The notes beneath the pieces are model-generated. The model searched no databases, had not been told where the DNA came from, and saw only the letters and a list, made by a program, of their open reading frames with translations. Below, in pieces: positions 27,451 to 36,288 of a stretch of 64,000 nt of DNA. The DNA lies in the NCBI RefSeq assembly GCF_030063205.1, contig NZ_JASISQ010000005.1, positions 124,001-188,000 on the forward strand. Direction: 5' to 3'. Each line of letters begins with the position of its first letter. The first letter of the stretch is position 1. This DNA is from Arthrobacter antibioticus (GTDB lineage Bacteria; Actinomycetota; Actinomycetes; Actinomycetales; Micrococcaceae). A program made the translations under genes and the position numbers.

Positions 27451-30270
27451 ATGAGCTCAGATTTGCAACCAAACCCGCAGGGCACCGCACAGGGTGCCGA
27501 GCCGGACACTGACCTTCGCCGCGATGTCCGCCGCGTGAGCACTTTGCTGGGTGAATCCCTGGTTCGCCAGCATGGCCCCGAACTGTTGGCGATGGTGGAG
27601 CAGGTTCGCCTGCTGACAAAGGAATCCAAAGAGGCTGCGCGTGGGGAATCCGGCACGGGCCCCTGGAGCGCAAACGACGTCGCGGAGCAGGTCCGTGAGG
27701 TCCTCTCCTCCCTACCGCTGGAGCAGGCAACAGACCTGGTTCGGGCCTTTGCGTTTTACTTCCACCTGGCCAACGCTGCGGAGCAGGTTCACCGTGTTCG
27801 GAGTCTGCGCAGCCGTAGCGAAAAGGACGGCTGGCTGGCCAAGGCCGTCACCGAAATTGCTGAAAAAGCGGGTGCCGAAACGCTGCAGAAGGTTGTCAAC
27901 GAACTGGACGTGCGGCCCATCTTCACCGCCCACCCCACGGAAGCATCGCGGCGTTCAGTGCTGGATAAGATCCGCAAGCTCTCTGACATCCTTGCCACCG
28001 AATCAGAAGAAGGCAGCACAGCCCGTGCCCGCCAGGACCGTAAACTGGCCGAAATCATCGACCAAATGTGGCAGACGGATGAGTTGCGGAAAGTTCGCCC
28101 CACCCCTATGGATGAGGCCCGCAACGCCATTTACTACCTGCGCAATATTCTCACTGACGCCATGCCGGAGGTGCTGACCGAGCTCAGCGACTTGTTGGGA
28201 GAGCACGGAGTTGCACTGCCCGTGGACGCCGCCCCACTGCGTTTCGGTTCGTGGATTGGTGGCGACCGCGATGGCAACCCCAATGTCACTCCGGAGGTGA
28301 CACGCGAGGTTTTGGTGTTGCAGAACCAGAACGCGGTGAAAATCTCGCTGGTGCTCATCGATGAGCTGTTGAGCGTTCTCTCCAACTCAAGCGCCCTCTA
28401 TGGCGCCGATGCGGCGCTGACCGATTCGATCGCTGTGGATTTGGCGAACCTGCCCCATATTGATCCGCGCGTCCTAGAGCTCAATGCGGATGAGCCGTAC
28501 CGTCTGAAACTCACCTGCATCAAGGCCAAACTGCACAACACGCAAAAGCGTGTGGCCGCTGACGCCTACCATGAGCCCGGCCGCGACTATAGCGCCACTT
28601 CGGAACTCATCGCGGATTTGGAGCTGCTGGAAGTTTCGCTGCGCAATAACTCTGCAGCTTTGGTGGCGGACGGGGCACTGGCTTCAGTGCGCCGGGCCAT
28701 TGCCTCCTTCGGTTTGCACTTGGCAACCTTGGATATCCGTGAGCATGCCGACTACCACCACGACGCCGTCGGCCAGCTCATTGACAGGGTTGGTGAGCTA
28801 AACAAGCCCTACGCAGAGTTTGATCGTGCCGAGCGTATGGCGGTTCTGAGCCGCGAACTTGCCAGTCAGCGTCCGCTTTCAGGGCACCCGATTAAGCTCG
28901 ACGGCGCGGCAAACGGAACCTACGACGTCTTCCGTGTTGTGCGGCGGGCCTTGCGCACGTACGGCCCCGACGTCATTGAAACGTACATTATCTCCATGAC
29001 TCGCGGCGCTGACGACGTGTTGGCCCCCGCGGTACTGGCTCGCGAAGCCGGGTTGGTCCAGCTCACCGGCGAAAACCGTTACGCCAAAATTGGTTTCGCA
29101 CCGCTGTTGGAAACGGTGGATGAGCTGCGCGCATCTGCTGAAATTGTGGACCAGCTGCTCTCCGATCCGGCGTACCGCGAACTTGTTCGCCTGCGCGGGG
29201 ACGTCCAGGAGATCATGCTTGGATACTCAGATTCCAACAAGGAATCCGGCGTGCTGACTTCACAGTGGGAGATCCACAAGACTCAGCGCAAACTCCGCGA
29301 CGTAGCGCTCAAGCACGGCGTGAACGTGCGCATGTTCCACGGCCGTGGCGGCTCCGTTGGCCGCGGTGGCGGACCCACCTATGACGCCATCATGGCCCAG
29401 CCCAATGGCGTCCTTGAAGGCGCCATCAAGTTCACCGAGCAGGGCGAGGTCATCTCCGATAAGTACTCCCTGCCCGAACTTGCCCGGGAAAACCTGGAAC
29501 TTTCCCTGGCTGCTGTCATGCAGGGCTCCGCCTTGCACCAGGCACCGCGTCACTCAGAGGATGATCTGGGCCGCTTCGGAGACATTATGGAAGTCATGTC
29601 CGACGCCGCTTTTGGTACCTACCGCACATTGATTGACCACGAGGACCTGCCGGCCTACTTTCTGGCGTCCACCCCGGTGGAGCAACTCGGAAGTTTGAAC
29701 ATTGGTTCACGGCCGTCCAAACGCCCGGATTCCGGGTCCGGGCTTGGAGGCCTGCGCGCCATCCCGTGGGTATTTGGGTGGACTCAGTCACGTCAGATTG
29801 TGCCGGGTTGGTTCGGTGTTGGCTCGGGTCTGCGCGCAGCACGTGAAGCTGGCCGCGGTGCTGAGCTGAAGGAAATGCTGGATCACTGGCACTTCTTCTC
29901 CTCCACTATCTCCAATGTGGAAATGACGCTGGCCAAGACGGATATGGACATTGCCGCGCACTACGTTCGCACCCTTGTACCTGTTCCGCTGCAGCACCTC
30001 TTTGCCACCATCCGCGCCGAGTTTGACCTCACTGTCGCGGAGCTACAGCTGCTGACAGGGGAGACTGAGCTGCTGGACAACCAGCCCCTGCTCAAACGTT
30101 CACTAAATGTCCGCGATCAGTATCTTGACCCCATCTCCTATCTCCAAGTTGAGCTGCTGCGCCGCGTCCGTGAGGCGGATATTACCAAGTCTGATGTGGA
30201 TGAGCGTCTACAGCGAGCCATGCTGATCACCATCAACGGTGTGGCTGCCGGCTTGCGTAACACCGGCTAA
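27451..30270 (+). CDS. ppc: Phosphoenolpyruvate carboxylase
   Basis: Carboxylates PEP to oxaloacetate to refill the citric acid cycle. At 939 residues it is full length. Catalytic His161 is in [12 protein letters not shown]. The second signature [10 protein letters not shown] and the glycine-rich [14 protein letters not shown] are intact, and the C-terminus ends in the family's RNTG. It is single-gene, with a 160-bp leader and a strong terminator 17 bp after the stop. Confidence 0.97.
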
Positions 30271-30287
30271 ACAACGCTCCCCTATGG

Positions 30288-30355
30288 AAAAAGCCGCCGT
30301 TTGCGGATTAAGCCACCCGGCGCCGGGTGGCTTAATCCGCAAACGGCGGCTTTTT
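30288..30355 (+). terminator. Gapless 68-bp palindromic terminator after ppc
   Basis: A perfect 34+34-bp palindrome with no loop: AAAAAGCCGCCG at the left end and CGGCGGCTTTTT at the right, meeting at GGC|GCC. A-run and T-run ends make it bidirectional on paper. It shares 29 of 34 arm positions with the element after upp (50576-50645). Confidence 0.92.
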
Positions 30356-30386
30356 TGGTGTGGGCGGCTTCGTTTAGGCTGGTTAG

Positions 30387-30692
30387 ATGCCTTCATTTCG
30401 TGCCACCATCCAAATTACCGGCCTGCGTCCCGGTCACGATCCTAAAGAAGTTATGGATGTGGCTGTTGCTGCGGTTGGTTCCGCCCACGTTGTTGAGGCC
30501 AACCAGCTGGACATTGTGGCCGGGGTGCCGCGCATTACCGTTCGTTTCATGGTTGAGGCCAGCGAGTACGACGCCGAGAACCAGTTTGCGCGCAACGCTG
30601 CGGTATCGATGGCGCATGGTGTGAATACGGTGGCCACCACGGGTGTTTTGCGCACCTTCCGCCGCTCCACAGGCAAGTGGCTTGCGCTCTAG
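30387..30692 (+). CDS. Small hypothetical protein
   Basis: A 101-residue cytosolic protein (RATIQITGLRPG, ending FRRSTGKWLAL) with alternating hydrophobic strands. I do not recognise the family. ATG at 30387 has only a poor ribosome site. The frame is uninterrupted and lies between the ppc terminator and the Asp23 cluster; its amphipathic pattern argues for real coding. Confidence 0.6.
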   Translation: MPSFRATIQITGLRPGHDPKEVMDVAVAAVGSAHVVEANQLDIVAGVPRITVRFMVEASEYDAENQFARNAAVSMAHGVNTVATTGVLRTFRRSTGKWLAL

Positions 30693-30709
30693 GAAGCCGG
30701 AAAAACAAG

Positions 30710-30725
30710 TGTGATGTGAATCACA
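30710..30725. promoter_or_regulatory. Perfect CRP/FNR-type binding site
   Basis: TGTGA-TGTGAA-TCACA, a full match to the CRP/GlxR consensus TGTGA-N6-TCACA. It is centred about 116 bp upstream of the first Asp23 gene and 18 bp after the small hypothetical gene ends. Confidence 0.65.
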
Positions 30726-30833
30726 TGGATTTAACCGTGAGGATTCTCCCGCTCGATACGCCTTATCTGTGTAGGCGCCAAAATGGTGCTGAGCTTGAAG
30801 ATGTATCTAAGCAGAACTTCGGGAGTGATTATT

Positions 30834-31322
30834 TTGACTACTCAGCCTCAGATTAAGAACCCAGCAACAGGTACCCCCGCACCGGGCAAACAGTCGGTCA
30901 CCAGCCGTGGCACCACCACGGTGGCTGACGGTGTTGTCGCCAAAGTTGCCGGTATTGCTGCACAGGACATTCCGGGTGTTTACGCACTCGGTGGCGGAGC
31001 CGCACGTGCACTGGGCAGCCTCCGCGAAGCTGTGGGTCAGAAGGATTTGACCCAGGGCGTGAGCGTTGAAGTTGGCCAGACACAGGTGGCGGTTGATATT
31101 ACTCTTGTTGTGGAGTACCCGCACCCACTTCAAAAGGTTGCCGACGACGTCCGTGACGCCATCTACGCCGCAGTGGAAGACGTGGTAGGTATGGAGGTGA
31201 CCGAGGTTAACGTCTCCATCACCGATATCCACATCGCTTCGGAAGAAAATGACGAGAAGACCGTCGCGGCCGCACGCCACGATGAGAGCCAGACTGGGCC
31301 GCGAGAAGCCCGCGTCTCATGA
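30834..31322 (+). CDS. Asp23/Gls24 envelope stress protein A
   Basis: A 162-residue Asp23/Gls24 protein (TTVADGVVAKVAGIAAQDIPGVYAL, VVEYPHPLQKVADDVRDAIYAAVEDVVGM, ending VTEVNVSITDIH). Such proteins associate with membrane anchors and support cell-envelope homeostasis. I choose TTG at 30834 because GGGAG lies 8 bases upstream and the protein then begins TTQPQIKNP; a frame start at 30783 is less likely. First gene of the cluster; its stop overlaps the next start (ATGA). Confidence 0.88.
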   Translation: MTTQPQIKNPATGTPAPGKQSVTSRGTTTVADGVVAKVAGIAAQDIPGVYALGGGAARALGSLREAVGQKDLTQGVSVEVGQTQVAVDITLVVEYPHPLQKVADDVRDAIYAAVEDVVGMEVTEVNVSITDIHIASEENDEKTVAAARHDESQTGPREARVS

Positions 31323-31510
31323 GCGCCACCGTGGCCGGCACGGCCATAGCCGCTACGTTGGCCATTACGGCCCTTGTTTTTGGATTCTGGGCCATGCTGT
31401 TGGTGGCCCTGTTCATGGCGGTTGGTGCGCTCATCGGCAGAAGTGTTGACGGCAGGCTGGATCTGCGCAGCGTTTTTGACGCTCTCCGCGGCAAGCGCAC
31501 CTCATCATGA
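31319..31510 (+). CDS. Small DUF2273-like membrane protein
   Basis: 63 residues with two closely spaced membrane helices (about 4-24 and 26-41) and a basic, cytosolic tail RSVFDALRGKRTSS. Small membrane proteins of this kind accompany Asp23/Gls24 genes and probably anchor them. Overlaps both neighbours by ATGA. Confidence 0.75.
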   Translation: MSATVAGTAIAATLAITALVFGFWAMLLVALFMAVGALIGRSVDGRLDLRSVFDALRGKRTSS

Positions 31511-31941
31511 GTACCGGCACGCGGGGGGCTGATCTGGAAGCACACCGGCAGCACCAGCCAAATATGCGTGCCGGGTACACCAACATTTCAGCCAACACGA
31601 TGCACCAGCTAGTGGCAGCGATCGCCGCCGACGCCCTCAATGTCCCGGCACGGGATATCAGCGCCAAAATCCACGATGAGCAGGGACAAGTAAGCGTCTC
31701 GCTGGCCGTGCCTTTGGTACTGCGCGCCCAAGGGCAGGATTTCTACCTGGACTCACCAAGTGATGATGTGCGCATGAACTTGGAGTCCGACGGCGGCACT
31801 GTGTTTGAGCGTGCAGCTGCAGTCAGGGACGTTGTGAGAAAACGCCTCCACGCTCTGGCTGGAACAACCGTTGGCCGAGTGGACATCCGGTTCACCGGGA
31901 TTCATGACGGGAAACCAATAACCACAGGGAGGGTCCAATGA
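31507..31941 (+). CDS. Asp23/Gls24 family protein B
   Basis: A 144-residue, diverged Asp23-type protein: NTMHQLVAAIAADALNVPARDISAKI at the start, a middle strand segment VSLAVPLVL, and the typical RDVVRKRLHALAGTTVGRVDIRFTGIH-type end (Asp23 C-terminal helix then strand). Together with protein A it gives two different cytosolic Asp23 subunits. ATGA overlaps on both sides. Confidence 0.78.
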   Translation: MSTGTRGADLEAHRQHQPNMRAGYTNISANTMHQLVAAIAADALNVPARDISAKIHDEQGQVSVSLAVPLVLRAQGQDFYLDSPSDDVRMNLESDGGTVFERAAAVRDVVRKRLHALAGTTVGRVDIRFTGIHDGKPITTGRVQ

Positions 31942-32552
31942 GAAACATGCAGGCAACTGAGCCGCGAGTAATCAAAAGACTCAATCTGCGCGAAACCCGG
32001 TCCAGCCGGGCAGCCTTGTCCATCATCGTAGCCGTCGCCCTGTTGCTGGCGGTGATATGGCTGGCCATTGAACTGCTGCTCGCGTTGACGGCGAACACAG
32101 CTCTGCTGATTTCCCCTTCCGAGCTGGCTGAGCGTACGGCATCAGTGGCAACAGCCACAATCCCTGAGGCGCTCATCGCGATCGGTGCAGGCATGGTGTT
32201 GGTGGGGCTTGCTATTGTGGCAGCGGCACTCTTGCCTGGTACGAAGCCGCGGCACATTATGGAGAGTTCACGTGCAGCAGTGGTGGTTGAGCATGAAGTG
32301 CTGGCCGCAGCCGTATCGCGTACTGCACGCACAGTTGCCCGCCTGACACCTGAACAGGTAGCGACAAGTGTGAGCCGAAAGCGCATCGAGGTTTCATTGC
32401 ATCCAAGCACCGGTCTGAGTGTAGATACGGATGCTGTTCAAGAAGCCGTGGAACGCGAGGTAGCTGCTTACGGATTGCATAATCCTGTTGCTATCACTGT
32501 CAAACCCGGGCATAAGCAGACGTCCGGTACTAAGCAGGAGGTGGGCATATGA
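31938..32552 (+). CDS. DUF6286-type membrane protein
   Basis: 204 residues with two membrane helices (about 27-50 and 78-102) and a cytosolic C-terminal domain with long helices (SRTARTVARLTPEQVATSVSR). Actinobacterial DUF6286 proteins occur in Asp23 clusters next to AmaP-like genes. Overlaps both neighbours by ATGA. Confidence 0.75.
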   Translation: MRNMQATEPRVIKRLNLRETRSSRAALSIIVAVALLLAVIWLAIELLLALTANTALLISPSELAERTASVATATIPEALIAIGAGMVLVGLAIVAAALLPGTKPRHIMESSRAAVVVEHEVLAAAVSRTARTVARLTPEQVATSVSRKRIEVSLHPSTGLSVDTDAVQEAVEREVAAYGLHNPVAITVKPGHKQTSGTKQEVGI

Positions 32553-33160
32553 ACAGCACCAACCGTGGGCTGAACCGCACAATATTGGCCATTTTTGGTT
32601 TGATATTAGCTGGCGCGGGAACCCTCGCAATACTGGCTGGAGTCAGCAGGGGATTCGCCCAAAGCTTGACTTCGGCCGGGACTAACCTCTGGAGCCGCAT
32701 CCAGGAACGGCTGGATGCGGCCCGGATTTCAGGGGCAGAGATCAGTTGGTGGACTATCGCTGTGCTGGTCCTGCTCATTGTGGTTGCAGTGCTGTTAGTG
32801 AGCTGGCTTGCCTCACAAGGCACTGGCCGCAGCAATGAGCTGGCCAAGGCGGAAAGCCCGACCGGAAATACCACAGTAGATATTGCTGTTGCCGCTCAAG
32901 CGATCAAGGCGGCACTGGCAGAAAACAACCAGATCCTCGCCAGTTCGGTGCAATCCTGGAAAACCAGAGGTATCGGCAGTGATACTGGGCTGAAAATAGT
33001 GCTCCAAGCCCGGAAAGGTGCCTCTCCGGCTGAGGTGCGCGCCGCCGTGGAACATCTAGTGGTGGGCTTGGATGAACTGTTGGGAATTCAATTGCCTGTG
33101 CTGATCCGCATCAAAGCAGGCACACGTAGCAAATTTGCCCGTACAGAACGCGTGGCATGA
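32549..33160 (+). CDS. AmaP-like alkaline-shock membrane anchor
   Basis: 203 residues: one N-terminal membrane helix (10-33), an amphipathic segment, a second membrane helix (about 67-90), then a cytosolic domain ending VGLDELLGIQLPVLIRIK. This two-helix hairpin followed by a soluble domain is the AmaP arrangement that holds Asp23 at the membrane in Staphylococcus. Last member of the ATGA-coupled block that begins at 30834. Confidence 0.72.
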   Translation: MNSTNRGLNRTILAIFGLILAGAGTLAILAGVSRGFAQSLTSAGTNLWSRIQERLDAARISGAEISWWTIAVLVLLIVVAVLLVSWLASQGTGRSNELAKAESPTGNTTVDIAVAAQAIKAALAENNQILASSVQSWKTRGIGSDTGLKIVLQARKGASPAEVRAAVEHLVVGLDELLGIQLPVLIRIKAGTRSKFARTERVA

Positions 33161-33196
33161 GAAAAAACAACAACGAAACCTAACGAAAGAGAAAAC

Positions 33197-33391
33197 ATGG
33201 GACTGGGCGATAAAATCAGTAATAGCGCCGAAAAGGGGCTTGGCTCCGTAAAAGAGCAAGCAGGCAAGCTGTTGGATAACCAGAAACTTGAGCATGAAGG
33301 CCGTGCAGACCAAGTAAGCGCCGAAGCCAAACAGGCCGGGGAAAAGGTCAAAGACGCCGCCACGGAGTTCAAAAACGGTCTCAACAAGTAG
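33197..33391 (+). CDS. CsbD-family stress protein
   Basis: 64 residues, hydrophilic and Lys/Glu-rich (GLGSVKEQAGKLLDNQKLEHEG, later AGEKVKDAATEFK). CsbD proteins are general-stress regulon members in Bacillus and many actinobacteria. AACGAAAGAGAAAAC precedes the ATG. It sits 36 bp after the AmaP-like gene. Confidence 0.88.
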   Translation: MGLGDKISNSAEKGLGSVKEQAGKLLDNQKLEHEGRADQVSAEAKQAGEKVKDAATEFKNGLNK

Positions 33392-33439
33392 TCTAATCAT
33401 CTGCATTACAAGCATTCGCACTTAATATAAGGGGTACAT

Positions 33440-33697
33440 ATGGGTTTCTTCGGATTTATTATTCTTGGTTTGATCGTCGGCGCAATCGTTAAGGCAGTCA
33501 TGCCTGGCAAAGTCGGAGGCGGCTGGATCACAAGCATCATTTTGGGAGTGGTTGGCGCCATCGTTGGTGGCTGGCTCGGATCGCTTATTTTCAATGTTGA
33601 CCTCGGCACGTTCTTCAATATTAAGACGTGGCTGTTGTCCATTGGTGGTGGCCTGGTTGTTGCCGCAATCTACGGCGCCATCCGCGGCCGTAAGTAG
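33440..33697 (+). CDS. GlsB/YeaQ/YmgE-type small membrane protein
   Basis: 85 residues with three Gly-rich membrane helices (GLIVGAIVKAVMPGKVGGGW then SIILGVVGAIVGGWLG). The family ('transglycosylase-associated') is stress-induced and small; its job is not known. AAGGGG precedes the ATG. It belongs to the envelope-stress block. Confidence 0.9.
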   Translation: MGFFGFIILGLIVGAIVKAVMPGKVGGGWITSIILGVVGAIVGGWLGSLIFNVDLGTFFNIKTWLLSIGGGLVVAAIYGAIRGRK

Positions 33698-33725
33698 CCT
33701 CAGGTAGCTTACAAATAGTTTCAAG

Positions 33726-33766
33726 TTTCGCGGGCAGCTAACGCATAGCGTTAGCTGCCCGCGAAA
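33726..33766. repeat. Perfect 19-bp inverted repeat with ATA loop
   Basis: Arms TTTCGCGGGCAGCTAACGC and its exact complement, loop ATA (33745-33747). It lies between the GlsB-like gene and the sigma-factor gene. Neither strand has a T-run after the stem, so it is not a standard intrinsic terminator; it could pause transcription or bind a regulator. Confidence 0.85.
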
Positions 33767-33805
33767 ACGTATAGGCTCACAGCCAAGCACCTTGGACGGC
33801 TGGAA

Positions 33806-34396
33806 ATGATGAAAGGGCCCAAGACGGTGAAACGACTGCAGGAAATGGCGCACGCACTTGCTGATGCCCCCGATGATTTTTTGGCAGAGCGTTCCGGTGA
33901 CGGTGATGTTGCTGCCTTTGAGGCGCTGGCCCATAGACATGCCCCACTGATGCGAGCATACGCCCGGCGTCTAACCCGAACCTATGACGATGCCGACGAC
34001 GTTGTACAAGAAGCGCTCATCACAGCATGGAAAGATATCCGGGACCTCAAGGATCCGGCGTCAGTAAAAGCGTGGATGATGCGGATAGTGGCCCACCGTG
34101 CTGTCGATTCTGGCAGGCGGCGTAAAGTACATGGCAACTTGGATGAGCAGGGGCACGCGGCAGATAAAAAACCCACGCCGGAGCAAGCCGCGTTGGCTGG
34201 GTCCGCGCGTCTTGCATTGAATCAGGCGCTTGCCCGTCTACCGGAAGAACAGCGACGATGCTGGGTCTTGAAGGAAATCGGTGGTCAATCATATGAGGAA
34301 ATTGCCGAGACGCTGGGTATCAGCGCAACCAGCGTGCGCGGCCGGTTGGCCAGAGCACGAACAACGCTTGTGAAGGACATGGAGGACTGGCGATGA
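33806..34396 (+). CDS. ECF-type RNA polymerase sigma factor
   Basis: A 196-residue sigma-70 family protein: region 2 with YDDADDVVQEALITAWKDI (about 55-85) and region 4 with LPEEQRRCWVLKEIGGQSYEE and GISATSVRGRLARART (about 135-185). It directs polymerase to stress promoters. Start could be either of two adjacent ATGs (33806, 33809). Its stop overlaps the anti-sigma start (ATGA), the usual arrangement of an ECF pair. By position it should control the Asp23 genes upstream (inference). Confidence 0.93.
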   Translation: MMKGPKTVKRLQEMAHALADAPDDFLAERSGDGDVAAFEALAHRHAPLMRAYARRLTRTYDDADDVVQEALITAWKDIRDLKDPASVKAWMMRIVAHRAVDSGRRRKVHGNLDEQGHAADKKPTPEQAALAGSARLALNQALARLPEEQRRCWVLKEIGGQSYEEIAETLGISATSVRGRLARARTTLVKDMEDWR

Positions 34397-34986
34397 ACCC
34401 AACGCGAGATTGCGATCGGCGCATCGAAGACCTCAGCGACTACCTCGACACGGGTGTTTGCGCTGATGCCGAACATATTGAGCACTGCCCACAATGCCAG
34501 GCAAGACTTGCAGGACTGAGAAGCCTCAGGTCTGTAGCCATGGATCTCATGGACGACGACGCGGCGTCAGCAGCAGCCGATGACACCATCTGGCTTGATG
34601 GCATTCTGGCCAACCTGAGGCTAGAAACGAGCGCGGGGCGCTCAATCCCGATTGCTGGCGGTCCTTTAGACCAGCTGACAGAATCCGAGGGTGCTGTCAT
34701 TGCAATGGTCCGCTCCGTGGGTGACTCTGTGGGCGGGGTGTTGATTGGTCGCTGCCGGATAGATGGCGACGCCGAGACCGTCGGAGCACCCATTGAATTT
34801 CACATAGGTGTTTCAGCGAGGTACGGGTACCCGTTGCCGTCGCTTGCCGAGAAATTGCGGGAGGCAGTGTTCGCAGAACTGCTAGCTGAAACGGAGCTGA
34901 ATGTGGTGGCTGTGCACGTGACGTTCACTGATGTGCGGCCGAGATTTCAGACTGCTGGCGATGCGGATAGGAAAGAACAGCCATGA
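34393..34986 (+). CDS. Zinc-finger anti-sigma domain fused to an Asp23-like domain
   Basis: A 197-residue two-part protein. The N-terminus has the ZAS anti-sigma signature His-x3-Cys-x2-Cys in EHIEHCPQCQARL (about 30-40) and is followed by a short helix. The C-terminal ~100 residues (GAVIAMVRSVGDSVGG, SLAEKLREAVFAELLAETEL, then VAVHVTFTDV) follow the Asp23/Gls24 strand-helix-strand pattern. No membrane helix is visible. It would hold the ECF sigma factor and could bind Asp23 proteins directly. Coupled to the sigma gene and to the next gene by ATGA. Confidence 0.75.
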   Translation: MNPTRDCDRRIEDLSDYLDTGVCADAEHIEHCPQCQARLAGLRSLRSVAMDLMDDDAASAAADDTIWLDGILANLRLETSAGRSIPIAGGPLDQLTESEGAVIAMVRSVGDSVGGVLIGRCRIDGDAETVGAPIEFHIGVSARYGYPLPSLAEKLREAVFAELLAETELNVVAVHVTFTDVRPRFQTAGDADRKEQP

Positions 34987-35348
34987 GCCTTGAAGATGAT
35001 GTTCACCAGCGGGTCTTGGACATGGATGGCGTTGCTGTTGTCTATGCAGTGGATCCGACGTGGCGAACAGCGGTGAAAACGTTGGGTGGACTCCTATTAC
35101 CCGCGGAAACTGCTGCGGCGACGACCTTCGTGGCGTGCTCCGAGACCGCTGACCCTGGCAGCGAAGGCATGAGACCGGTCCTGACAGCGCCGGTCCTGAC
35201 AGTGAAGGTGCGTGTAGGCACCGATGGGTCTGTGCCGGCACCGCAGTTGGCTCGCAGTGTTGCTACTGGGATTCGCACATTTGTAGCCCCGCGTAGGCCA
35301 GATTTTGAGGTTCGGGTACTTGTTCAGATCGCCGCAATCGGAGTCTAG
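34983..35348 (+). CDS. Small Asp23-like protein at the cluster end
   Basis: 121 residues, no membrane helix. The C-terminal half (LTVKVRVGTDGSVPAPQLARS, then FEVRVLVQIAAI) resembles the closing strand-helix-strand of Asp23. It contains an in-frame 15-bp duplication (ccggtcctgacag repeated at 35175 and 35190) giving PVLTA-PVLTV. Starts in the anti-sigma stop (ATGA). Family membership is a guess from pattern and position. Confidence 0.55.
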   Translation: MSLEDDVHQRVLDMDGVAVVYAVDPTWRTAVKTLGGLLLPAETAAATTFVACSETADPGSEGMRPVLTAPVLTVKVRVGTDGSVPAPQLARSVATGIRTFVAPRRPDFEVRVLVQIAAIGV

Positions 35349-35355
35349 CCACCGC

Positions 35356-36288
35356 TTAGTTGTGACCTGGAAACGCTGAAAGTTCCAGTTTAGAGGAGTA
35401 GCTCACTGCCTCACGAGTCAGCGGGTCAGTAAAGGAAATACTGCGCGCTAGTAGCTGCAGTGGTTTAGTGAAATCATCCGGTGCCTGCTCGTGCAGGATT
35501 GGGTAAAACGAATCGTTCAAGATTCCTAGGCCCTGGGAGGCCATGTGCACGCGCAGTTGATGGGTTTTTCCTGTGTGCGGGTTCAGATCGTAGAGCCCTA
35601 GGTGGTCACCGGTTGTCTGGTCCGTACGGCTGTCCAACAACCCGATCCGGGTTTCAGCGTTGGGCTCACCTTCGATTTCTTGAGCCAACAAATACGTGCG
35701 CGATTTAATCATGTGACTCCGCACCACTAAGGGCAGCTCCAGATCGTCGCGGACCGGTGCCACGGCGCGGTACGTTTTTTGTATCTGACGTCTTTCAAAT
35801 AATGTTTGGTATTTTCCACGCGTGTCAGGGTTAGCTGAAAATAACAACACCCCGGCAGTCATCCTGTCCAAGCGGTGCATGGGCACCAGTTCCGGTAGGT
35901 CAAGGAATACGCGCAGGCGGACAAGGGCCGACTCCTGAACGTACATGCCGCCAGGTGTGGTGGGCAGAAAATGAGGCTTGTCCACAACCACAAGGTTTTC
36001 ATCCTGATGCAGGACTGAGAGTTCCACGGGTAGCCGTTTTTCCACCGGCAGTTCGCGGTAGTACCAAATGAACATGTGCTGGTCCAACGGGGTCGCGGGT
36101 GTGAGGATTTCCCCACCCAACGCCATAACTTCGCCGCGTTCAAATCTACTGACGATGCCGGCAGGGTCCACATGCCCGAATTTGTCCAGCACAAATTCCA
36201 TGGCTGTTTTCCAGGGCCCCTCAGCGGGCACTCGCACGCGGGTCGCGTTGACGCCATTGCGTACCGGGAGCGGAGATTTCATCACCAT
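35356..36288 (-). CDS. RluA-family pseudouridine synthase
   Basis: A 310-residue RNA pseudouridine synthase. The catalytic Asp is in MHRLDRMTAGVLL and the later motif HTGKTHQLRVHMAS is intact. It modifies rRNA or tRNA; the target cannot be named from sequence. Two nearby ATGs (36288, 36282) are possible starts. Convergent with the Asp23 cluster, 7 bp apart. Confidence 0.9.
   Translation of the reverse strand: MVMKSPLPVRNGVNATRVRVPAEGPWKTAMEFVLDKFGHVDPAGIVSRFERGEVMALGGEILTPATPLDQHMFIWYYRELPVEKRLPVELSVLHQDENLVVVDKPHFLPTTPGGMYVQESALVRLRVFLDLPELVPMHRLDRMTAGVLLFSANPDTRGKYQTLFERRQIQKTYRAVAPVRDDLELPLVVRSHMIKSRTYLLAQEIEGEPNAETRIGLLDSRTDQTTGDHLGLYDLNPHTGKTHQLRVHMASQGLGILNDSFYPILHEQAPDDFTKPLQLLARSISFTDPLTREAVSYSSKLELSAFPGHN

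Follow-up and report, generated by a model that had tools for sequence, protein, structure and literature searches.

The stretch of DNA considered here (the window) comprises 64,000 nucleotides (nt) of contig NZ_JASISQ010000005.1 of Arthrobacter antibioticus. At positions 30834-35348 of its + strand lies an operon of ten open reading frames (ORFs), g1 to g10, which joins the genes of a putative Asp23-type membrane scaffold to those of an extracytoplasmic function (ECF) sigma factor, g8, and of a candidate anti-sigma factor, g9, a fusion of a zinc-binding anti-sigma (ZAS) part with an Asp23 domain. The favoured reading, held with slightly better than even confidence, is that g8 and g9 form a sigma/anti-sigma switch under its own control, by which a second copy of the Asp23 scaffold can be induced. 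As judged from sequence, the coupling of the genes, the domain make-up and the autoregulatory promoter are well supported; the inhibition of g8 by g9, the Asp23 domain as the input, an adaptor role of g10 and a negative feedback from the scaffold to the sigma factor are what we infer beyond them. All ten ORFs listed in an initial annotation of this locus were found at the positions it had given.

The Sigma Factor and the Fusion Protein

The product of g8 (33806-34396, + strand), a protein of 196 amino acids (aa), matches Sigma70_r2 (PF04542) and Sigma70_r4_2 (PF08281), corresponding to sigma2 and sigma4, above the Pfam cut-offs. The adjoining g9 (34393-34986, + strand) encodes a soluble protein of 197 aa, in which residues 1-80 are predicted to form a helical part of class I (ZAS) and residues 84-182 an Asp23 domain. 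Its N-terminus contains C7, H28, C32 and C35, invariant in 16/16 rows of the family alignment A1 and in agreement with the ZAS pattern, Hx3Cx2C with an upstream Cys or His ligand. In the AlphaFold2 model, built from a 10-sequence alignment, helices occupy residues 11-20, 26-31, 33-56 and 64-80 (mean pLDDT 71, with residues 51-80 at around 50); the class I layout is described as four N-terminal helices of which the fourth is separate (PMC7406223). The g9 family profile (45 members) gave weak matches in the PDB to 3hug_B (E 0.021), RsiW (0.055) and DdvA (0.17), in a list that also holds unrelated chains such as SecE2 and zinc fingers. The label of 3hug_B is only 'probable conserved membrane protein', and we take this chain to be RslA.

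Residues 134-182 of the window protein match the Asp23 family PF03780 with 23.1 bits (E 1e-4), under the Pfam cut-off of 28. As far as sequence comparison can tell, this weak match is real: PF03780 is matched at E <= 0.01 by 34 of the 45 members of the g9 family alignment, the window protein included (best 9.4e-16), the curated cut-off is passed by 6 of the 13 genus members, and the profile-profile probability against g1, the canonical Asp23 protein of the operon, is 95.8%, or 98.2% with 45 sequences. A spurious match was considered and is ruled out by the 34 matching members together with the higher of these probabilities. The initial annotation had proposed a ZAS anti-sigma factor with an Asp23-type C-terminus beside the ECF gene and had named structure prediction of 34393-34986 as one way to check it; the four ligand residues and the profile match bear this out, and structure prediction combined with profiles gives no reason to see in the C-terminus a fold unrelated to Asp23. 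The PDB entries most similar to the predicted domain are C-terminal domains of the MamM type (Z 9.2, 2.3 A over 80 residues; Foldseek E 8.6e-4), a likeness between a model and solved chains that is read as a common alpha/beta arrangement and not as a sign of function. When the PDB was searched by sequence with g1 and with A1, no relative of Asp23 turned up, so that the fold comparisons refer to solved chains of other families. The most constant residues counted in the domain are R107 (44/45) and R156 (45/45).

The last gene, g10 (34983-35348, + strand), encodes a protein of 121 aa that has no Pfam match at E <= 1, so that it stays short of the PF03780 cut-off, and whose profile reaches 4% against g1 and 12% against g9, neither value being significant. 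Modelled separately (pLDDT 74.8), it has a predicted fold that matches the kind of PDB domain already seen for the Asp23 part of g9 (ZnT3 Z 9.9, MamM Z 9.8). The two are linked here because their predicted folds match the same domain type, though their sequences do not match. The description of g10 as a small Asp23-like protein in the initial annotation therefore holds for the predicted fold and not for Pfam or profile matching. Counterparts of g10 elsewhere match Asp23-type profiles or are annotated as Asp23/Gls24, as in Streptomyces sp. KN37.

Conservation of the ECF/Fusion Pair

A search of 58 relatives at E <= 0.001 gave g9 matches in 17: 15 of the 22 genomes of the genus (the genome studied here counted), G022 from elsewhere in the family, and G046, where only the N-terminus is matched. 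Of the 15 genus genomes 13 carry orthologues and two (G004 and G019) a divergent arrangement, and no match was found at this threshold in the remaining seven. A second search at the same threshold, covering 394 genomes of the class, gave matches in 119, many of them through the Asp23 part alone, and the 38 near-full-length matches were fetched. The ECF gene stands directly upstream of the fusion gene in 38/38 (37 scored by script and one, L107, by separate inspection); the same holds for the 13 genus loci and for a genome from outside the class (L182). When the start codon nearest to the ECF stop codon is taken (n=37), the two genes overlap by 4 nt in 27 loci, by 10 nt in nine and by 1 nt in one. 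In a phylum-wide search (E <= 1e-6) near-full-length matches were found in at least 9 of 396 genomes, own included, of which one, G684, lies outside the class; the other matches listed cover mostly the Asp23 part only.

The Asp23 genes belong to the same neighbourhood. Within 6 kb on each side, where the contig allows, canonical Asp23 was found in 33/38 class loci, DUF2273 in 30/38, a DUF6286-like protein in 32/38, an AmaP-like protein in 31/38, CsbD in 10/38 and GlsB in 3/38, cross-hits being possible among the Asp23, DUF6286 and AmaP profiles. A g10-like gene starts at most 11 nt from the stop codon of g9 in 28/38. Synteny of the sigma, fusion and Asp23 genes in relatives, named in the initial annotation as decisive for its idea, is thus conserved with the ECF gene adjacent in all 38 loci and canonical Asp23 nearby in 33. 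Chance synteny of ECF gene and fusion is ruled out by the retention of the pair in all 38 relatives.

All four zinc ligands are kept in 27/38 class relatives. The 11 without the full set all belong to one family (f19), perhaps Microbacteriaceae to judge from matches to Microbacterium and Frigoribacterium plasmids, and they retain both the ECF linkage and the Asp23 domain; the zinc motif pattern was also absent from another five relatives that adjoin an ECF gene (L137, L170-L173). Because linkage and domain persist where the ligands are lost, a signal common to the family is unlikely to lie in zinc chemistry, and the sequences thus point to the Asp23 domain, not zinc, as the likelier input. Redox sensing by zinc as a trigger common to the whole family of fusions is ruled out by the 11 losses. 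Anti-sigma groups that mix zinc and non-zinc members have been described, with a structural role for zinc suggested there (PMC7406223).

The converse arrangement occurs in 15 ECF-less loci of genus g61, probably Streptomyces as judged from plasmid matches, which were chosen because the match lacked the N-terminus (L123, L124, L156-L168). In these loci a gene divergent to the Asp23 operon encodes a protein in which the linker and Asp23 domain known from g9 are preserved; the ZAS motif was found in 0/15 and a directly adjacent ECF gene in 0/15, and in L168 an ECF-like ORF lies about 500 nt off, tail to tail. In 13/15 this protein has a further Asp23-like stretch, as detected by the g10 model. 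The ECF gene and the ZAS part were either lost together or never gained, and either history would link the ZAS part with the ECF factor, just as it would link the Asp23 part with the Asp23 operon. Pair-less copies of the Asp23 operon also exist within the genus: the genome studied here contains a second one (L028, 6722-9102 of G000:C14) with no ECF gene, no fusion and no promoter motif, and such a copy was present in 15/15 genus genomes where that stretch was fetched.

Among named loci, the fusion is found in Streptomyces sp. KN37, Microbacterium proteolyticum and Arthrobacter sp. ERGS1:01, and in these three records its gene is labelled as Asp23/Gls24 family envelope stress response protein; a scan of genome contigs with a single pattern returned nine named loci with the fusion, 8/9 of them from Arthrobacter. 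In Arthrobacter sp. ERGS1:01 (L206, NZ_CP012477.1) the operon and its ppc flank are located on a replicon of 754 kb that its record classes as a plasmid. It is also worth mentioning that a record titled Sporosarcina beigongshangi strain REN13 (L049) contains an Arthrobacter-type operon with a 70% identical fusion, the assembly probably being mislabelled.

Predicted Promoter and Other Possible Control Elements

A predicted ECF promoter is located upstream of g1 at 30736-30765 on the + strand, with the -35 element CGTGAGGA, a gap of 15 nt and the -10 element CGCCTTA. In the region before g1 of the 13 genus loci, a block resembling CGTGASGA is followed after a gap by one resembling CGCCTTA, and a CRP-type palindrome lies ahead of both. 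The strict pattern derived from these blocks (CGTGASGA-N14-16-CGYCTTA; core and loose forms were scored as well) occurs 11 times in the 22 genus genomes, every time before an Asp23/ECF operon; the reversed strict pattern occurs 0 times in the same 22 genomes, and the strict motif is absent from the seven genus genomes without the system. When 36 ECF-linked loci other than the 13 were scored, the strict form was found in 9 (shuffled mean 0.06), the core form in 13 (0.26) and the loose form in 23 (2.2, maximum 7), counts that were not blind, as the patterns were drawn after part of the distant loci had been viewed; cleaner evidence for the promoter comes from the scan of the genus and from the ECF-less sets.

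As controls, 22 Asp23 operons without the pair were scored: 15 genus paralogues, L136, four from other genera of the family and two of Streptomyces type (L123 and L124, which belong also to the 15 ECF-less loci). Neither the strict nor the core form was found in any of them. Among the Streptomyces-type loci the loose motif is present in 5/9 that are ECF-linked versus 0/15 that are ECF-less. No sigma-70 type promoter was found in 30270-35400. The sequence evidence indicates that g8 probably drives its own operon from 30736-30765, and the suggestion of the initial annotation that the sigma factor drives the operon is favoured by the strict motif before the operon and its absence from 22/22 controls. 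L136 (G005:C3), which may not be a clean control, deserves a remark of its own: next to its Asp23 operon, on the other side, a divergent gene has a weak ECF-like sigma match (67 bits), a loose promoter match is present, and the locus is possibly another sigma-linked variant.

Two further elements accompany the promoter. A CRP/FNR-type palindrome, TGTGA-N6-TCACA, lies at 30710-30725, its centre about 18 bp before the -35 element; the pattern TG[TA]GA-N6-TCAC was found in 12/13 genus loci, 0/22 controls and 4/36 distant ECF-linked loci, which suggests a second layer of control. Between the GlsB and ECF genes, at 33726-33766 on the + strand, a hairpin with a perfect stem of 19 bp shows covariation: in 12 genus sequences 8 of the 11 counted pairs change on both sides, with 93.2% of cells paired and 0/500 shuffles as high, the structure having been derived from the same sequences as those used in this test. 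The hairpin has no T-run and is followed by a conserved -10-like TAGGCT (33772-33777). It is possibly an attenuator limiting read-through into the sigma/anti-sigma genes, and it may keep the levels of both factors under those of the structural proteins.

Proposed Mechanism and Its Alternatives

In the favoured model, g8 would direct transcription of the operon at the promoter in 30736-30765, with g9 as its anti-sigma factor, whose helices 1-3 and helix 4 would clamp the sigma factor. The Asp23 domain, which in the model begins about three residues past helix 4 in a stretch of low confidence, would serve as the input by binding Asp23-type partners, that is g10 and/or a g1/g3 scaffold whose attachment to the membrane would be due to the AmaP-like, DUF6286-like and DUF2273 proteins. 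If the scaffold were disturbed or insufficient, the contact with the partner would change, helix 4 would release the sigma factor and the operon would be induced; partner binding near helix 4 could peel this helix off sigma2. Induction would last until enough scaffold had been rebuilt, a negative feedback in its presumed direction, and zinc would mainly hold the fold of g9 rather than act as a shared signal. The initial annotation had put forward a related idea, in which the anti-sigma factor would sense an Asp23 lattice through domain exchange and the loss of membrane-bound Asp23 would free the sigma factor; this, too, is conjecture. A putative scaffold sensor is plausible because in Staphylococcus aureus, where Asp23 polymerises and is anchored by AmaP, deletion of either protein induces the cell-wall stress response (PMC6954212).

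Several observations weigh against this model. The prediction of helix 4 has a pLDDT of about 50 only. No canonical Asp23 gene lies within the fetched stretch in 5/38 class loci (L088, L098, L111, L117, L121), the 7.5 kb inspected of the Microbacterium proteolyticum plasmid contain the pair but not the operon, and 10/38 class loci have no g10-like gene beside g9; the g10 model, moreover, scores canonical Asp23 similarly, so that the second stretch in the ECF-less proteins is Asp23-like and not specifically g10. An Asp23/Gls24 gene of S. venezuelae, which may or may not be ECF-linked, falls in expression after ethanol shock (PMC9769785). The -35 sequence GTGACGA differs from the AAC usual for ECF factors (PMC8103513). 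The strict promoter motif is missing from G004, G005, G015 and G019, four of the 15 genus genomes that have the system, and among 39 ECF-linked loci outside the 13 that have canonical Asp23 (the 36 above and three added to them) the strict form was found in only 10, the core form in 14 and the loose form in 24, counts shaped in part by the manner in which the patterns were drawn; four more distant linked loci have 0 strict and two loose matches, and the loose form occurs in 2/22 pair-less controls (L136 and L154; 0.8 expected).

A tentative and on the whole doubtful extension is that transcription is coupled to assembly itself, g9 being a modified subunit of the Asp23 polymer whose entry into, or expulsion from, the anchored scaffold would set sigma activity across actinomycetes, with g10 as an adaptor where present; FlgM in flagellum building follows a comparable checkpoint logic. 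The alternative that g9 is an ordinary redox ZAS switch, in which oxidation or zinc loss frees the sigma factor and the Asp23 domain is only a handle for dimerisation or localisation, is regarded as unlikely. It would account for the invariance of C7, H28, C32 and C35 in A1 and for the 27/38 distant loci that keep all four ligands, oxidative stress is the normal stimulus of soluble ZAS domains (PMC8999054), and all 11 losses fall in one family and may represent a single event; the incomplete ligand set of these 11 loci despite ECF linkage and Asp23 domain, the missing motif in L137 and L170-L173, and the structural role suggested for zinc in mixed zinc/non-zinc groups (PMC7406223) nevertheless speak against it.

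A partner switch, in which g10 would be a dedicated anti-anti-sigma or co-anti-sigma factor pairing with the Asp23 domain of g9, and the g1 scaffold only an output that is not itself sensed, is similarly improbable. The g10-like gene directly after g9 in 28/38, the predicted fold shared by the two domains and the second Asp23-like stretch within the same protein in 13/15 ECF-less loci agree with such a pairing, yet the 10/38 loci without g10 beside g9 retain both ECF gene and fusion, and the second stretch cannot be assigned to g10 in particular. Sensing of a small ligand or a metal, in place of an Asp23 protein, by the Asp23 domain of g9 appears very unlikely: among PDB folds the nearest are those of the C-terminal domain in cation diffusion facilitators (MamM CTD, Z 9.2), but this is a similarity of fold only, with 18% identity in the best row, and the most constant residues counted are the arginines R107 and R156 (44/45 and 45/45).

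Relation to Known Systems

The initial annotation knew of no described case of such a system. This does not stand, as two groups of ECF factors, ECF286 and ECF292, are predicted to use soluble anti-sigma factors of the Asp23 family (Casas-Pastor et al. 2021 classification, cited in the 2022 review PMC8999054). As described there, and compared by description only, they resemble g8/g9 in that the ECF factor is encoded beside a soluble Asp23-family protein; the model protein of ECF286 comes from Streptomyces rimosus (PMC8999054), and Streptomyces sp. KN37 shows the g8/g9-type architecture. The passages of the review on the two groups give no domain make-up, promoter or sensing model, though a ZAS part may be noted in the classification itself. 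No experimental study of an ECF/Asp23-anti-sigma pair showed up in full-text searches of open-licence literature. Added here to the published prediction are the domain make-up, the promoter evidence, the loss of the zinc site and the ECF-less variants.

Among soluble class I (ZAS) anti-sigma factors with a C-terminal sensor, ChrR, in which an N-terminal ZAS domain is followed by a separate, cupin-like C-terminal domain, is built like g9; in the sensor position, however, g9 has an Asp23 domain, one of the units from which the product of the operon itself is made. The asp23-amaP operon of S. aureus is presumably under SigB control and without a linked sigma/anti-sigma pair, and in this it differs from the present operon. 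It is alike in combining Asp23 and its AmaP anchor in one operon (PMC6954212). A further counterpart is the paralogous Arthrobacter operon of L028, with Asp23, DUF2273, 31507-like (g3), DUF6286-like and AmaP-like genes in the same order, set apart by the absence of ECF gene, fusion and promoter motif noted above.

Asp23 proteins are widespread, and one was present in 29/31 genomes examined. Their molecular function was still called unclear in 2020 (PMC6954212). If the favoured model holds, the cell may sense the state of the Asp23 scaffold and rebuild it on demand, and the promoter activity would be a ready reporter of that state, the brake containing an Asp23 domain and the main predicted target being the Asp23 operon. 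The systems of the ECF286/ECF292 type would gain a defined arrangement of domains, along with a promoter candidate and an input that can be tested.

The Scaffold Genes and the Flanks of the Operon

The scaffold part of the operon begins with g1 (30834-31322, + strand like the rest of the operon), which has a TTG start in a region conserved over the 13 aligned genus loci and encodes a canonical Asp23 protein (PF03780, 90.4 bits, E 1.2e-25, well over the Pfam cut-off of 28). It is followed by g2 (31319-31510), a small membrane protein of the DUF2273 family (PF10031, 37 bits, cut-off 25.4), and g3 (31507-31941), a second, divergent Asp23-like protein whose C-terminus matches the g1 profile in hhalign with 80.6% probability over 38 columns; the presence of two Asp23-type proteins among these genes agrees with the initial annotation. 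The membrane proteins g4 (31938-32552) and g5 (32549-33160) match DUF6286 (PF19803, 29.7 bits) and AmaP (NCBIfam NF033218, 22.5 bits) under the cut-offs of 35 and 55, respectively. The former, annotated as DUF6286, is accordingly better called DUF6286-like, and the latter remains, as annotated, AmaP-like only. Neither g4 nor g5 matches the g1 profile, and Asp23-like ends are not claimed for them. The accessory genes g6 (33197-33391), encoding the variably present CsbD (PF05532, 53.7 bits, cut-off 40), and g7 (33440-33697), encoding a GlsB/transglycosylase-associated membrane protein (PF04226, 27.2 bits, cut-off 25.3), both exceed their Pfam cut-offs, in line with the annotation. In the genus, the window included, g3 was recovered in 12/13 loci, CsbD in 7/13, GlsB in 11/13 and the remaining genes in 13/13.

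Exact ATGA overlaps join g1/g2, g2/g3, g3/g4, g4/g5, g8/g9 and g9/g10. The initial annotation, which placed the genes from the first Asp23 gene to GlsB all in tight ATGA couplings, overstated this, the CsbD, GlsB and ECF genes being preceded by gaps of 36, 48 and 108 nt, respectively.

Upstream, the operon is flanked by the phosphoenolpyruvate carboxylase (PEPC) gene, ppc, and a 101-aa ORF, and downstream by a convergent pseudouridine synthase gene. Twelve more orthologous loci were fetched; of these, 12/12 contain the gene for pseudouridine synthase, and 11/12 contain PEPC and the 101-aa ORF. The ORF, at 30387-30692, is without an assigned function and is 80-93% identical in these 11 of the 12 other genus loci. 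A strong bidirectional terminator-like hairpin is located at 30298-30345, on the 3' side of the PEPC gene.

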